Assembly (NCBI GenBank): GCA_943787295.1
Contig: CALSLW010000003.1
Span: forward strand, 1 to 64,000
Length of the DNA: 64,000 bases
Direction: 5' to 3'
Source: an uncultured Flavobacteriaceae bacterium
GTDB lineage: Bacteria; Bacteroidota; Bacteroidia; Flavobacteriales; Flavobacteriaceae
Part shown: positions 8,057 to 26,804 of the stretch, piece by piece
How positions within the stretch are numbered: position 1 is the stretch's first letter
Layout: every line of letters begins with the position of its first letter
Notes under the pieces: model-generated
Databases searched by the model: none
What the model was told of the DNA's origin: nothing
What the model saw: only the letters and a program-made list of their open reading frames with translations
Translations under genes and position numbers: made by a program

Positions 8057-9889
8057 ATGTTTGAAAGAATCTTTAAATATCATTATTCAAATAAATTCGC
8101 TTACGCACTAGATGCGATTTGCATCTTTATTGCTTTAGAAGCCATCCTTTTCCTCAACGGTTCTGTATTGATTATTCGATCACAACTAGATAAACCTGTA
8201 TTTATAGCGTTAGCCTTGGGCTGTATTACCCTCTTTCGAGGCTATAAGATGGTATTGCGATTTACCACCTTTATCGACATAGGGAAAATAACCTCTGGAC
8301 TCATCCTTACCATTGCGATATACGCTTTGTATATTAAAGCAGATACACGTGGGCATTACAACTACTTATTGTTATTGTTTTATTTCAGTTTATCCCTTCT
8401 TTCTCTCTACCGACTGGTGATCAAATTGCTTTATGCACGAGTGACTAAAGAAGAAAAATTATTAAACACTTTACTTTTTGGCGCTGGCGCAAATGGCTTA
8501 AGAACAAAAAGAGCCTTAGACGACAGTAACGCTGTCAATGTTTTAGCGTTTATAGACGAAGCCCCTGGAACGGTAGGGAGAAGCATTGAAGGTTTATCTG
8601 TAATGCGCTTAGACGAAAAGCTTGAAAAGTTCATTGAGAACAAAAATGTCCAGCAGATCATCATTACCACAGAACAAATTGGTCAAAAAAAGAAAAATGA
8701 ACTCTTTCAATTTTTCAAGAATAAGGGCGTAAAAATATTTACAGTACCTGCCATTGATAAATTAGCCAGTAATGAGGGTATTGTAAGTAATCTTACGCCT
8801 ATCAAAATTGAAGACCTTTTAAGGAGAGATCAAATCAAAATTGACCTAGAGAAGAACAAATCCCAATATAAGCACAAAACTATTTTAGTAACCGGTGCAG
8901 CTGGGTCTATAGGGAGTGAAATCGTTCGTCAATTACTTCCCTTTGAACCAGAGCAAATTATTTTATACGATCAAGCAGAAACCCCTTTGTTTGATTTAAA
9001 AAATGAATTAGCCCAAAAAGGAACCAAAGTAAAACTACATTACTATTTGCAAACAATCACAGACAAAGCTGCTTTAGAACAATGCTTTAAAGCATTCTCT
9101 ATCGATGTCGTTTTTCATGCCGCTGCTTATAAACATGTATTTATGACAGAGGCGATCCCTAAGGCTGCCATTGTCAATAATATTTTAGGCACTAAAAATG
9201 TTGTTGATGTCGCTTTGGAAAACAAGGTTGCCCATTTGGTGATGGTGTCAACAGATAAGGCGGTTAATCCTTCTAATGTGATGGGAGCGTCTAAACGTAT
9301 TGCTGAAATGTATGTCGCGCAGGCCGCAGAAAACACAAGCACACAAATCATCACGACTCGCTTTGGGAATGTGTTAGGGTCAAACGGTTCTGTTGTCCCT
9401 ATTTTTAAAGAGCAAATTGCCAAAGGCGGCCCGGTAACGGTAACCCATCCAGACATCACCCGTTATTTTATGACCATTACAGAAGCCTGTCAATTGGTAC
9501 TTGAAGCTGGAGCAACCGGTGAAGGAGGGGAGATTTATGTATTTGATATGGGAGAACCAGTGAAAATCGCTGATCTCGCAACAAGCATGATTCGCTTATC
9601 TGGTTTAATCGAAGGGCAAGACATTGAACTAGTTTATAGTGGACTAAGACCCGGGGAAAAACTCTATGAAGAACTACTCACCGATAAAGAAAACCTTAAA
9701 CCTTCTCATAATGAGTTGATTTTTATCGCTGAAAAGGAAGTATTCTCTACAAACCAACAAGAGCAAATTCTCGCTTTAATAGATAGTGCTGCTAAAGGGG
9801 TGAAGGAAGATATTCTTGTCAAGCAAATGAAAGCAATCGTTCCAGAATACAAATCGATGAATTCGACTTATACCGCTCTTGACAATTAA
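8057..9889 (+). CDS. Membrane-anchored nucleoside-diphosphate-sugar 4,6-dehydratase (PglF/WbpM/CapD-like)
   Basis: N-terminal TM helices, ILVTGAAGSIGSEIVRQLL, HAAAYKHVFMTE, VMGASKRIAEM. Confidence 0.92.
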   Translation: MFERIFKYHYSNKFAYALDAICIFIALEAILFLNGSVLIIRSQLDKPVFIALALGCITLFRGYKMVLRFTTFIDIGKITSGLILTIAIYALYIKADTRGHYNYLLLLFYFSLSLLSLYRLVIKLLYARVTKEEKLLNTLLFGAGANGLRTKRALDDSNAVNVLAFIDEAPGTVGRSIEGLSVMRLDEKLEKFIENKNVQQIIITTEQIGQKKKNELFQFFKNKGVKIFTVPAIDKLASNEGIVSNLTPIKIEDLLRRDQIKIDLEKNKSQYKHKTILVTGAAGSIGSEIVRQLLPFEPEQIILYDQAETPLFDLKNELAQKGTKVKLHYYLQTITDKAALEQCFKAFSIDVVFHAAAYKHVFMTEAIPKAAIVNNILGTKNVVDVALENKVAHLVMVSTDKAVNPSNVMGASKRIAEMYVAQAAENTSTQIITTRFGNVLGSNGSVVPIFKEQIAKGGPVTVTHPDITRYFMTITEACQLVLEAGATGEGGEIYVFDMGEPVKIADLATSMIRLSGLIEGQDIELVYSGLRPGEKLYEELLTDKENLKPSHNELIFIAEKEVFSTNQQEQILALIDSAAKGVKEDILVKQMKAIVPEYKSMNSTYTALDN

Positions 9890-23261: not shown

Positions 23262-24140
23262 ATGGCAAACACAGACGTTAAAGACCTGCTTGACGCAGGC
23301 GTACACTTTGGTCACTTGACCAGAAAATGGAATCCTAACATGGCGCCCTATATCTATATGGAGCGTAATGGAATCCACATCATTAACCTTTACAAAACTG
23401 CAGCTAAAGTAGACGAAGCGGCAGAAGCAATGAAGAAAATCGCTGCTTCTGGACGTAAGATCCTTTTTGTTGCAACAAAAAAACAAGCCAAAGATATCGT
23501 TGCAACCAAAGCGGCTGCAGCTAAAATGCCTTACATCACAGAGCGTTGGCCTGGTGGAATGTTAACCAACTTTGTTACCATTCGTAAAGCAGTTAAGAAA
23601 ATGGCTTCTATCGATCGCATGAAGAAAGATGGAACTTTTGAAACTTTATCGAAGAAAGAAAAGTTACAAGTAGACCGTCAGCGTGCGAAACTAGAAAAGA
23701 ACTTAGGTTCAATTACAGATATGACCCGTCTTCCGGGGGCATTATTTGTTGTTGACATTAAGCGTGAGCACATTGCCATCAAAGAAGCACAGAAATTAAA
23801 CATTCCAATCTTTGCCATGGTCGATACCAACTCTGATCCTCGTGATGTAGATTTCGTTATCCCTGCAAATGATGATGCTTCTAAGTCAATCGAAAAGATT
23901 TTAGGCATTGTAACTGAAGCAGTAAGCGAAGGCTTAACTACGCGTCAATCTGAAAAAGATGCGGCGAATAAAGGCCAAGAAGAAGCGAAAGAAGCTCCAG
24001 CAGCAGAAGCTCCAGTAGCAGAAGCAGCAGCAGAAGCTCCAGTAGCAGAAGCAGCACCGGAAGCTCCAGCAGTTGAAGCAACTCCAGAAGCACCAGAAGC
24101 ACCATCAGCAGAAAGCGCAGACGCAGCTAAAGACGCTTAA
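23262..24140 (+). CDS. rpsB: 30S ribosomal protein S2 with Ala/Glu/Pro-rich C-terminal tail
   Basis: LLDAGVHFGHLTRKWNPNMAPYIYMERNGIHIINL; tail EAPVAEAAAEAPVAEAAPEAP. Confidence 0.97.
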   Translation: MANTDVKDLLDAGVHFGHLTRKWNPNMAPYIYMERNGIHIINLYKTAAKVDEAAEAMKKIAASGRKILFVATKKQAKDIVATKAAAAKMPYITERWPGGMLTNFVTIRKAVKKMASIDRMKKDGTFETLSKKEKLQVDRQRAKLEKNLGSITDMTRLPGALFVVDIKREHIAIKEAQKLNIPIFAMVDTNSDPRDVDFVIPANDDASKSIEKILGIVTEAVSEGLTTRQSEKDAANKGQEEAKEAPAAEAPVAEAAAEAPVAEAAPEAPAVEATPEAPEAPSAESADAAKDA

Positions 24141-24226: not shown

Positions 24227-25048
24227 ATGAAAATTACTGCATCAGAAGTAAATAAATTACGTCAAGCCACAGGGGCTGGAATGATGGATTGTAAAAAAGC
24301 TTTAGTTGAAGCCGAAGGAGACTTTGACAAAGCGGTAGAAAACTTACGTAAAAAAGGTCAAAAAGTTGCGGCTAATCGCGCTGATCGCGATTCAGCTGAA
24401 GGAGCTGTTTTAGCTAAAGTGAACGCAGACAATACCGCTGGTGTTGTTGTGTCAGTAAACTGTGAAACAGATTTCGTTGCTAAAAACGACCGTTACTTAG
24501 CCTTAGCCAATCAAATCCTTGATTTAGCTTTAGAAGCAAAAACAATCGAAGATTTACTTGCTGCAGACTTTGGTGGTATGAGCGTAGCTGATAAATTAAC
24601 CGAGCAAACTGGGGTAATCGGAGAGAAAATTGAAATCGGTGGTTTCAAAAGAATCGAAGGTCCTTTTGTAGGACACTACATCCACGCTGGAAATAAAATC
24701 GCAACCATCGTAGGTCTTTCTGCAAACGTAGAAGGTGGAGCAGAAGCAGCAAAGAATGTTGCCATGCAAGCCGCTGCAATGAATCCTATCGCCTTAAATG
24801 AAGAAGGTGTTGATGCAACCGTAATCGAAAAAGAAATCGAAATTGCCAAAGACCAACTGCGTCAAGAAGGTAAGCCAGAGGCTATGTTAGACAACATTGC
24901 CAAAGGAAAGATCAAGCGTTTCTTTAAAGACAATACTCTTGTAAACCAAGCGTTTATCAAAGATAGCAAACAAACCGTTACACAATATGTTCAATCTGTT
25001 AATGCAGATTTAACGGTAACAGACTTTGCTCGCCTAGCCTTAGTATAG
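24227..25048 (+). CDS. tsf: Elongation factor Ts
   Basis: VNKLRQATGAGMMDCKKALVEAEGDFDKAVE. Confidence 0.97.
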   Translation: MKITASEVNKLRQATGAGMMDCKKALVEAEGDFDKAVENLRKKGQKVAANRADRDSAEGAVLAKVNADNTAGVVVSVNCETDFVAKNDRYLALANQILDLALEAKTIEDLLAADFGGMSVADKLTEQTGVIGEKIEIGGFKRIEGPFVGHYIHAGNKIATIVGLSANVEGGAEAAKNVAMQAAAMNPIALNEEGVDATVIEKEIEIAKDQLRQEGKPEAMLDNIAKGKIKRFFKDNTLVNQAFIKDSKQTVTQYVQSVNADLTVTDFARLALV

Positions 25049-25118: not shown

Positions 25119-25375
25119 CTCTAAAATTTCACTCAAAAAATGCATTAAAATATGTATAATATAATAAATAAATTTTAACTTTAATAATTAAAATTTATGG
25201 TTTGACTCGTTTACTGTCAGGATTTCCCCTTTTTTTACTTAAATCATCTTTTGCTCAAATTGGCCTTTATGGAGCACTACAATTCGCTTCAAGTGAAGTG
25301 ATTGCTCTCCGGACAAGGGGCTCAGGACAAGGCTCGAAGTGACTGTAGGGTCATTGCAATCACCCCCGTCCATTT

Positions 25376-25394
25376 CCTGCCTTCGGTAGGCAGG
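25376..25394. repeat. Palindromic hairpin CCTGCCT-TCGGT-AGGCAGG, followed by a diverged second copy (to about 25415)
   Basis: Perfect 7-bp stem, 5-nt loop; then CCATACCTTCGGCAGGCAGG. Confidence 0.8.
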
Positions 25395-25444
25395 CCATAC
25401 CTTCGGCAGGCAGGCGACCACCTTTGTCCATTTCGAGCGCAGTC

Positions 25445-25490
25445 GAGAAATCTACCGAAGTGGAGAAATCTACCGAAGCCGAGAAATCTA
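25445..25490. repeat. 18-bp tandem repeat GAGAAATCTACCGAAG(TG/CC), about 2.6 copies
   Basis: 25445-25462, 25463-25480, partial 25481-25490. Confidence 0.9.
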
Positions 25491-25496
25491 ACCATT

Positions 25497-25790
25497 ATGA
25501 CCAAGAACTACTACATCTACATCCTTACAAACAAGGCCAAAACGGTGCTTTACATCGGGGTGACCAATAACCTAAAAAGAAGGATTTACGAACATCGAAA
25601 CCCTGAGCCTAATTCAAAATCCTTTTCTAGCAGGTACAAAACGATTTACCTCATTTACTACGAACACTTTTTTAGTATCAGGAAGGCTATTCAGCGAGAG
25701 AAGCAGTTAAAACGATGGAGTCGTATTAAAAAAGAAAAGCTTATCGCTACCAAAAACCCTGAATGGAATTTTTTGAATGATACGATTTAG
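25497..25790 (+). CDS. GIY-YIG nuclease-domain protein (UPF0213/UvrC-N-like)
   Basis: YYIYILTNKAKTVLYIGVTNNLKRRIYEHRN...KAIQREKQLKRWSRIKKEKLI; ATG at 25497. Confidence 0.9.
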   Translation: MTKNYYIYILTNKAKTVLYIGVTNNLKRRIYEHRNPEPNSKSFSSRYKTIYLIYYEHFFSIRKAIQREKQLKRWSRIKKEKLIATKNPEWNFLNDTI

Positions 25791-25880
25791 AGACTTCTCC
25801 ACTTCGCCTCCCTATGGTAGGCTTCGGTCGAAGTGACCATGGAGTATTCGAAGGATGTCGAAGTGACTACAGGGATTATT

Positions 25881-26804
25881 CTACTTAAGTTTACGGATGA
25901 TAAAAGCGTCTGGTAATTCTTGAAACGCCCCAGAAAATGCTTGTCCTACTTCAATCGCTTTTCTTCTTAAGTAATCACCGTGAAGATAACTGTGATACAA
26001 GACATCAAAATCAATTTCGCCTTGCGAATTAATTACTTGATCCCCAGCAATGTTATAGACATATAAAGATGGATCTGTAGCATCCATAAAATCGCGATAA
26101 TCCACCGCATCTAAATCTGCTTGTGTGGGTTCTCCTCCATAAAAACTTAAGAAAAGTGTTTGTAAAAAGGGATTCATTTGTCTTAACCCATCTAAGCTAA
26201 AACCAGTGAAAACATTTTCCCATTCATAGAGGTCATAAGTACTTTGCGCGGCAATTGCGACAACACCTTGAACCTGGTCATTGAGGTTATTTTTAAACCC
26301 ATTCCACTGGGCGATTCCTGCACCAGCAGATGCCCCCGCTAGAATGATTTTATTGGAGGGGATATTCATTTGGCTTAAATGATTTTTAATAAAACTGATC
26401 GCTTCTGTTCCGTCTTCAAGGGCAGAAATTACCCCTTGGTTTCCGGTTGTAGTTAACAAGCTATAATTTGCAGAAACGATCGCAATGTCTTTTTCAAAAA
26501 CAGCCTGCATGGTTTCTAACAAAAGGTCGTCAAAGGCTTGTGCTTTGTCTCCCCCAGTAAAGCCTCCGCCGTGAAAAAAGATAACGACGCCTGAAGGGTT
26601 TGAATTTTCAGGGAGAAGAATGTCGAGTTGTTGTCGTTCTTGATCTCCATAATTAATGTCTTCAAAAAAGCGACCTTCTCCTATAGGGGAAGCGATTTGG
26701 GTTACGCCAAAAATACTTTCAAGATCAACAGTTGTTGTGGGATCGTCACTTTTGGCACATGCTAATAAAAGCAAAATAAAGGGCAGTGTAATTAACTTTT
26801 TCAT
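25881..26804 (-). CDS. Alpha/beta hydrolase (carboxylesterase-like) lipoprotein
   Basis: Lipobox LLLAC; VIFFHGGGFTGGDKA, LAGASAGAGIA. Confidence 0.85.
   Translation of the reverse strand: MKKLITLPFILLLLACAKSDDPTTTVDLESIFGVTQIASPIGEGRFFEDINYGDQERQQLDILLPENSNPSGVVIFFHGGGFTGGDKAQAFDDLLLETMQAVFEKDIAIVSANYSLLTTTGNQGVISALEDGTEAISFIKNHLSQMNIPSNKIILAGASAGAGIAQWNGFKNNLNDQVQGVVAIAAQSTYDLYEWENVFTGFSLDGLRQMNPFLQTLFLSFYGGEPTQADLDAVDYRDFMDATDPSLYVYNIAGDQVINSQGEIDFDVLYHSYLHGDYLRRKAIEVGQAFSGAFQELPDAFIIRKLK

Follow-up and report, generated by a model that had tools for sequence, protein, structure and literature searches.

What is the gene for a small GIY-YIG nuclease doing among palindromic and tandem repeats in an intergenic interval? 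The locus lies in a stretch of 64,000 nucleotides (the window) of contig CALSLW010000003.1, from an uncultured Flavobacteriaceae bacterium. REPs are among the commonest repeats of bacterial chromosomes, and a preliminary description of the window had suggested that gene and repeats might form a mobile unit analogous to REP/RAYT, with a GIY-YIG enzyme replacing the Y1 transposase. The nesting of the gene and the genome-wide co-occurrence described below support that suggestion, cutting and movement of the repeats by the nuclease being putative. Our own reading, to which we assign a probability of about 0.7, is that the locus is a REP-and-nuclease unit, i.e., a GIY-YIG gene nested in outward-pointing REPs of the CGTC/TGTC class, whose product would act on the repeats and disperse them.

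The nuclease gene and its flanking elements

The features of the locus, in window coordinates, are:

25331..25343, reverse strand: GTCACTTCGAGCC, partial left half of a repeat (pattern match; repeat family D2)
25376..25394, no strand: CCTGCCTTCGGTAGGCAGG, exact palindrome CCTGCCT-TCGGT-AGGCAGG, a GC-rich hairpin with a 7-bp stem (fold z -2.4)
25395..25414, no strand: CCATACCTTCGGCAGGCAGG, diverged second copy of the palindrome (repeat/pattern search)
25426..25454, forward strand: upstream REP-like element, GTCC-ATTTC-GA-GCGCAGTC-GA-GAAAT-CTA, GTC end away from the gene (pattern match)
25431-25450: TTTCGAGCGCAGTCGAGAAA, inside the upstream REP-like element
25441..25490, forward strand: 18-bp tandem array, 2.8 copies, 90%, of repeated 3' arms (ACCGAAGNNGAGAAATCT) (TRF)
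25456-25471 and 25791-25806: 16-nt inverted pair bracketing the gene, 94%
25497..25790, forward strand: GIY-YIG nuclease gene, 97 aa, conserved catalytic-type residues intact (PF01541; alignment)
25791..25837, reverse strand: downstream REP-like element, GTC-ACTTC-GA...GA-GAAGT-CT, GTC end away from the gene (pattern match)
25828 and 25858: TCGAAGTGAC motifs downstream of the nuclease gene
25855..25867, reverse strand: GTCACTTCGACAT, partial left half of a second downstream repeat (pattern match)

The gene is preceded by tsf (24227-25048) and followed by a convergent hydrolase gene (25881-26804, reverse strand). The tandem array stops 6 bp short of its ATG, and the downstream REP-like element begins directly 3' of its stop codon. 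The ORF of the preliminary description is thus present at 25497-25790, encoding 97 rather than the 98 residues first given, and the palindrome, its diverged copy, the tandem repeat before the ATG and the related downstream motifs were all located in the region described. The protein matches Pfam PF01541 (E 2.1e-16) with 60.4 bits against a curated cut-off of 22.6, placing it in the superfamily, and shares the invariant Y, Y, G, R, E and N columns of an alignment of 23 diverse members. A 162-aa frame from 25302 is not credible as the gene, as it reads through repeats, and an Rfam search for an RNA reading of the locus gave no family. Elsewhere in the window, the 3' end of an rpsB-like gene carries a 27-bp tandem repeat of 3.9 copies (23998-24101) that encodes an Ala/Pro/Glu-rich tail.

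The flanks of 29 same-family homologs share one pattern, GTC-A-n1n2n3n4 ... n4'n3'n2'n1'-T-C, whose four stem bases vary by lineage yet stay complementary (e.g., TTTC/GAAA, TTCT/AGAA, TGTC/GACA, TTGC/GCAA, TTAC/GTAA and CTTC/GAAG). The repeats fall into two classes, one with a perfect stem, usually of 8 bp (also the median), and one in which GA breaks up the stem on either side; a 3' GA was present in 85 of 141 elements with a 5' GA, as against 3 of 188 without it, and the interrupting GAs likely form tandem G.A pairs. When the grammar GTC(C)A-NNNN-GA...rc(NNNN)T-C was applied to the 64 kb of the window there were four matches, two of them bracketing the nuclease gene, compared with 0.32 in Markov shuffles, so that the matches around the gene exceed chance.

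The window elements belong to the GA-interrupted class, with a 5-bp stem, the GA/GA interruption and CTA or CTC tails. Their tags are TGTC with an extra C (upstream) and GGTC (downstream); a congener copy reads CGTCATTTC. Folded as single strands, the upstream repeat did not surpass shuffles, and the downstream one surpassed them only modestly (z -2.0); these weak standard energies follow from membership of the interrupted class. Hairpin energy was dropped as a sole criterion, because standard parameters give this class weak folds even though conservation of its 3' GA is strong. The preliminary description had counted the CCTGCCT palindrome as part of the unit. It is probably a separate repeat and not a core part: a related CTACCTTCGGTAGG occurs 3' of tsf in a congener, where no GIY gene was seen. 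The feature should be delimited as about 25331-25867.

An AlphaFold model of a family member (pLDDT 92.5) had as its nearest solved structures the UPF0213 protein 1ZG2 and Slx1, a nuclease that acts on branched DNA. Small GIY-YIG proteins of the UPF0213 type (1ZG2, 1YWL), likewise single domains of about 95 aa, are the best sequence and fold match among solved structures, but the similarity is remote, at about 25% identity. The catalytic fold is also common to GIY-YIG homing endonucleases of the I-TevI type, which makes a mobile-element role conceivable; the window gene differs from these in being free-standing, a 97-aa single domain with neither an intron nor a DNA-binding extension, and its product scored 20.7 bits with the group I intron endonuclease model TIGR01453, whose cut-off is 56.

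Within its own 2.2-Mb genome, the 226-bp upstream region matched one other place at E<0.01. This second locus (C2:625876-625960) is a solo element lacking a gene, and its segment C2:625876-625908 is near-identical to the upstream REP-like element. The genome holds one GIY-YIG gene of the window kind and gave no PF01797 match for a Y1/RAYT transposase. The genome-wide search for the repeats that the preliminary description had proposed therefore yielded two loci, one of them holding the gene, rather than repeats scattered without linkage to it. With so few loci the system in this organism is small and probably decayed, degenerate or inactive.

Linkage and matching of repeats and nucleases

In 80 ten-kb loci around same-family homologs, together with the window, grammar repeats occurred at 2.84/kb within 250 bp of the genes, at 0.17/kb at 3-5 kb, and at about 0.1/kb or less in shuffles. 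Apparent exceptions among these loci, where read, mostly had the same tag with a longer stem, e.g., GTCATTCCTGCGAAGGCAGGAATC. A second sample, selected solely on protein similarity, comprised 80 relatives in about 15 phyla, on contigs representing one genome per species; the profile used was built on a closer set, a diverse alignment having given no conserved stretch. The groups covered were alpha-, beta-, gamma- and deltaproteobacteria, Chloroflexi, Omnitrophota, several Patescibacteria, Nitrospirae, Planctomycetota, Armatimonadetes, Calditrichaeota, Cloacimonadota, a Thermotogota-like genome and Bacteroidetes. A perfect [C/T]GTC-A..T-C(CA) hairpin, mostly TGTC or CGTC ... CCA, lay within 300 bp of the gene in 67 of these 80 relatives and was absent from that interval in 13. 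GTC-tagged hairpins reached a density of 7.5/kb within 100 bp of the genes in the 80 loci, falling to 0.11/kb at 2-5 kb (shuffles 0-0.07/kb), and when all 64 trinucleotides were ranked as hairpin tags, GTC came first and TGG, the complement of the CCA tail, second.

Outward-pointing hairpins stood on both sides of 38/80 GIY genes in the cross-phylum sample and 32/83 in the same-family sample (70/163 jointly), whereas among other ORFs of the same loci the counts were 1/321 and 1/421 (2/742 jointly). None of 20 Y1 transposase loci of the same family had a real repeat within 200 bp, a single match being chance-like. The association between GIY-YIG genes and repeats is, we are almost certain, real and specific.

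Some individual loci have features of their own. Truncated or stop-containing GIY-YIG copies, some of them partial and in tandem, lie beside intact repeats at L116, L098, L110 and L151, a form of decay typical of selfish elements. On Planktothrix agardhii plasmid p1 (L265), TGTC repeats bracket a GIY-YIG gene between an MmeI-type restriction enzyme and DISARM drmA. At L159 a second, UPF0213-like GIY-YIG gene (KCSDG type; 8090-8407) adjoins GTCAGGTCGAGCGCAGTCGAGACCTC, and another GIY subfamily may therefore pair with the GAGCGNAGTCGA repeat class. Two PLSDB "plasmid" records, L261 (Neisseria gonorrhoeae, 2.2 Mb) and L268 (Aeromonas caviae, 4.9 Mb), look like mislabelled chromosomes.

The sequence of the repeat also follows that of the protein. 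For 64 of 131 genes that had a repeat close by, the nearest protein from another genome was accompanied by the same five-base stem, compared with a permuted mean of 19.9 and a maximum of 33. When labels were swapped among paralogs of the same genome, stem matches fell from 13/29 to 5.7, and 0 of 500 permutations reached 13; because this swap destroys the match, shared ancestry of the hosts is not its explanation. Repeat type thus tracks nuclease clade, even between paralogs of one genome. The protein position most informative about the repeat corresponds to window residue 73 (z 18). Asn73 pairs with nCTYGAn loops (16/20 vs 5/111, p 6e-13), while Ala-Gly, Gly-Trp or Gly-Gly at this site pairs with the GTCANNNNGA class. 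Computed as it is on related sequences, residue 73 is a lead as a possible site of repeat specificity.

Co-occurrence was examined in 201 genomes, about one per genus, of which 110 had the nuclease and 91 did not. A genome counted as lacking the nuclease when a single query gave no match at E 1e-8; some absences may therefore be false, which would weaken the contrast between genomes with and without the gene rather than create it. Copies of the GTCATTCCTGCGNNNGCAGGAATC class numbered 299 in nuclease-bearing genomes and 3 in the rest, and at least two copies were found in 35/110 genomes with the nuclease as against 0/91 without it (p 6e-11). The more GIY genes a genome had, the more copies of the GAGCGNAGTCGA core it tended to have (Spearman 0.59, and 0.46-0.57 within genome-size strata), although 8 of the 91 genomes had at least 10 GAGCGNAGTCGA repeats despite no detected nuclease. 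Presence of a Y1 transposase showed no association with presence of repeats (odds ratio 1.18, p 0.69; 201 genomes).

Known REP systems and turnover at sites

The survey of Di Nocera et al. (2013) distinguished two super-families of REPs, GTAG and CGTC (PMC3733652). Members of the latter, which include Neisseria dRS3 and Rickettsia RPE-4/RPE-6, carry CGTC, TGTC or CCTC tags and CCA tails, have stems of 8-9 bp that start with A-T, and form head-to-head dimers; they "apparently lack a dedicated transposase", and no CGTC repeats lay at tyrosine transposases (PMC3733652). GIY-YIG is not mentioned in that survey (PMC3733652), and in the open-access literature we found no paper linking GIY-YIG to REPs or naming a CGTC-REP enzyme. 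The repeats beside GIY-YIG genes of other phyla have the same tags, A-T stems, CCA tails and head-to-head dimers. Of the organisms listed in the survey (PMC3733652), four, namely Azospirillum lipoferum, S. meliloti, Bradyrhizobium and Neisseria, proved to have such repeats close to GIY-YIG genes, the Neisseria gene sitting among dRS3-type units; in the loci examined, a fifth, Novosphingobium aromaticivorans, had no GIY-YIG gene with nearby repeats.

The window elements share the outward, head-to-head orientation of the GTC ends, but their stems are interrupted and of 5 bp, their tags are variants (GTCC, GGTC), and at two loci in the genome they lack the high copy number of CGTC-tagged REPs. 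The 8-9 bp stem and CCA tail are likewise missing from these elements, whereas stem, tail and high copy number are all found in relatives. The window unit would work like the CGTC-REP class, yet is a degenerate and not a textbook member, because its tags and stems depart from the definition and its copy number is minimal. With REP/RAYT systems (REPtrons, REPINs) it has in common short tagged hairpins, inverted dimers, a nested single-domain nuclease gene and a repeat matched to the protein clade; it differs in having a GIY-YIG enzyme where those have a Y1 HUH transposase, and the tag GTC where those have GTAG. Classical IS/MITE elements combine terminal inverted repeats with a target-site duplication; here there are outward inverted repeats, and in the Azospirillum comparison below no duplication was resolved.

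The preliminary description had looked to an empty-site allele to define the insertion. One was found in Azospirillum, for a unit homologous to that of the window. Between sufB and sufC, A. lipoferum 4B carries a block made up of a CGTC dimer, the GIY gene and a second CGTC dimer, and these two suf genes are joined by short, block-free spacers in A. ramasamyi, A. oryzae, A. sp. B510, A. thermophilum and A. argentinense. Dimers related to those of the block are scattered over other replicons of 4B. The empty sites show insertion; neither its exact ends nor a target-site duplication could be resolved, the flanking spacer having diverged. At the window locus, there was no clean empty allele among 13 congeners with tsf, because synteny downstream of tsf differs, the next gene being mostly polA or unrelated. 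Same-genus searches around another family member recovered a single genome.

In Bradyrhizobium, the GIY gene lies between two dimers of about 105 bp at one locus conserved across species, and because the locus is conserved it gave REP turnover but no gene-empty site. A gene so placed resembles a resident more than a hopping element, a point against dispersal. In the nearby spacer after an MFS gene (L212 6843-6957; also L192, L239, L189 and L231), a REP hotspot, the families differ by species and include CGTC types, an ATTGC type and a GTAG-like repeat, a sign of REP turnover. In a Bradyrhizobium MAG (L235 5001-5270) the GIY gene is reversed relative to the same neighbours in L189, L192 and L239, which suggests either inversion between repeats or an independent insertion.

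Possible mechanism and alternative explanations

GIY-YIG enzymes hydrolyse DNA with no covalent intermediate and no rejoining or strand-transfer step, while HUH enzymes cut and rejoin single strands. Because of this chemistry, dispersal of the repeats would need host repair or recombination. A likely course is that the nuclease recognises the REP of its own lineage, i.e., the GTC tag together with the hairpin or cruciform into which stem and loop fold, and nicks it at the recognition site; repair or recombination by the host would then copy REP singlets, dimers and occasionally a whole REP-nuclease-REP block to new intergenic sites, the scattered REPs being non-autonomous passengers. Binding, cleavage and dispersal are all putative activities, which we infer from the patterns above. 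Besides the conserved Bradyrhizobium locus, several observations count against this model: the near-absence of the repeat elsewhere in the window organism's genome and the weakness of its hairpins there, the 13 of 80 relatives that have no perfect hairpin within 300 bp, and the genomes rich in GAGCGNAGTCGA repeats in which no nuclease was detected.

A different role for the same enzyme would be that of a resident, structure-specific (Slx1-like) nuclease that trims or polices REP hairpins and cruciforms, with the nearby repeats serving mainly in self-regulation and nothing spreading. The likeness of its fold to Slx1, the single conserved gene locus across Bradyrhizobium species, and repeats that abut start and stop and could thus act on mRNA all fit this. 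A policing enzyme should also be found with repeats made in other ways, and repeats should be common where the enzyme is absent, whereas repeats at two or more copies are confined to nuclease-bearing genomes and the Azospirillum block is either there in full or missing altogether; we consider this explanation unlikely. It is still harder to credit that the gene is itself the passenger, carried along by recombination between REPs that something else spreads. REP-like sequences abound, and recombination could produce clusters of GIY-YIG copies and REPs such as the tandem partial copies at L116, but two-sided flanking is a property of GIY genes and not of other ORFs (2/742), the repeat type of a gene goes with its protein clade even between paralogs within a genome, and the repeats neither co-occur with Y1 transposases nor flank any of the 20 Y1 loci.

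These Y1 results also bear on mobilisation of the REPs in trans by RAYT/Y1 transposases, with the GIY-YIG link incidental. What favours this idea is the general link between REPs and RAYTs (PMC3733652, PMC8266576), but the window organism has no Y1 gene, the odds ratio over 201 genomes was 1.18 (p 0.69), 0/20 Y1 loci were flanked by real repeats, and the 2013 survey likewise saw CGTC repeats beside none of the tyrosine transposases (PMC3733652), making it very improbable. Least of all do we believe that ordinary intergenic repeats, i.e., terminator or mRNA-stability hairpins, lie by chance beside a small gene: hairpins are common near gene ends and the window copies are degenerate, yet two-sided outward nesting at 70/163 GIY genes as against 2/742 control ORFs, and the specificity of the GTC tag, speak against it.

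Beyond the window, and rather less firmly than our reading of the locus, we think it probable that GIY-YIG nucleases are the missing enzymes of the CGTC-REP superfamily, which would amount to a multi-phylum, HUH-independent system for transposition- or homing-like dispersal of tagged hairpins by a hydrolytic nuclease, about 95 aa long, whose short specificity patch would lie around residue 73. The GTAG class of REPs has a known enzyme, RAYT, while the CGTC class was left without one by the 2013 survey (PMC3733652). A nested gene, a subtype that predicts the sequence of the repeat, and multi-copy repeats unseen without the gene make the question of the CGTC enzyme directly testable, with a GIY-YIG nuclease as a strong candidate. 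If this is true, REP-type dispersal would have evolved twice, via unrelated nucleases.
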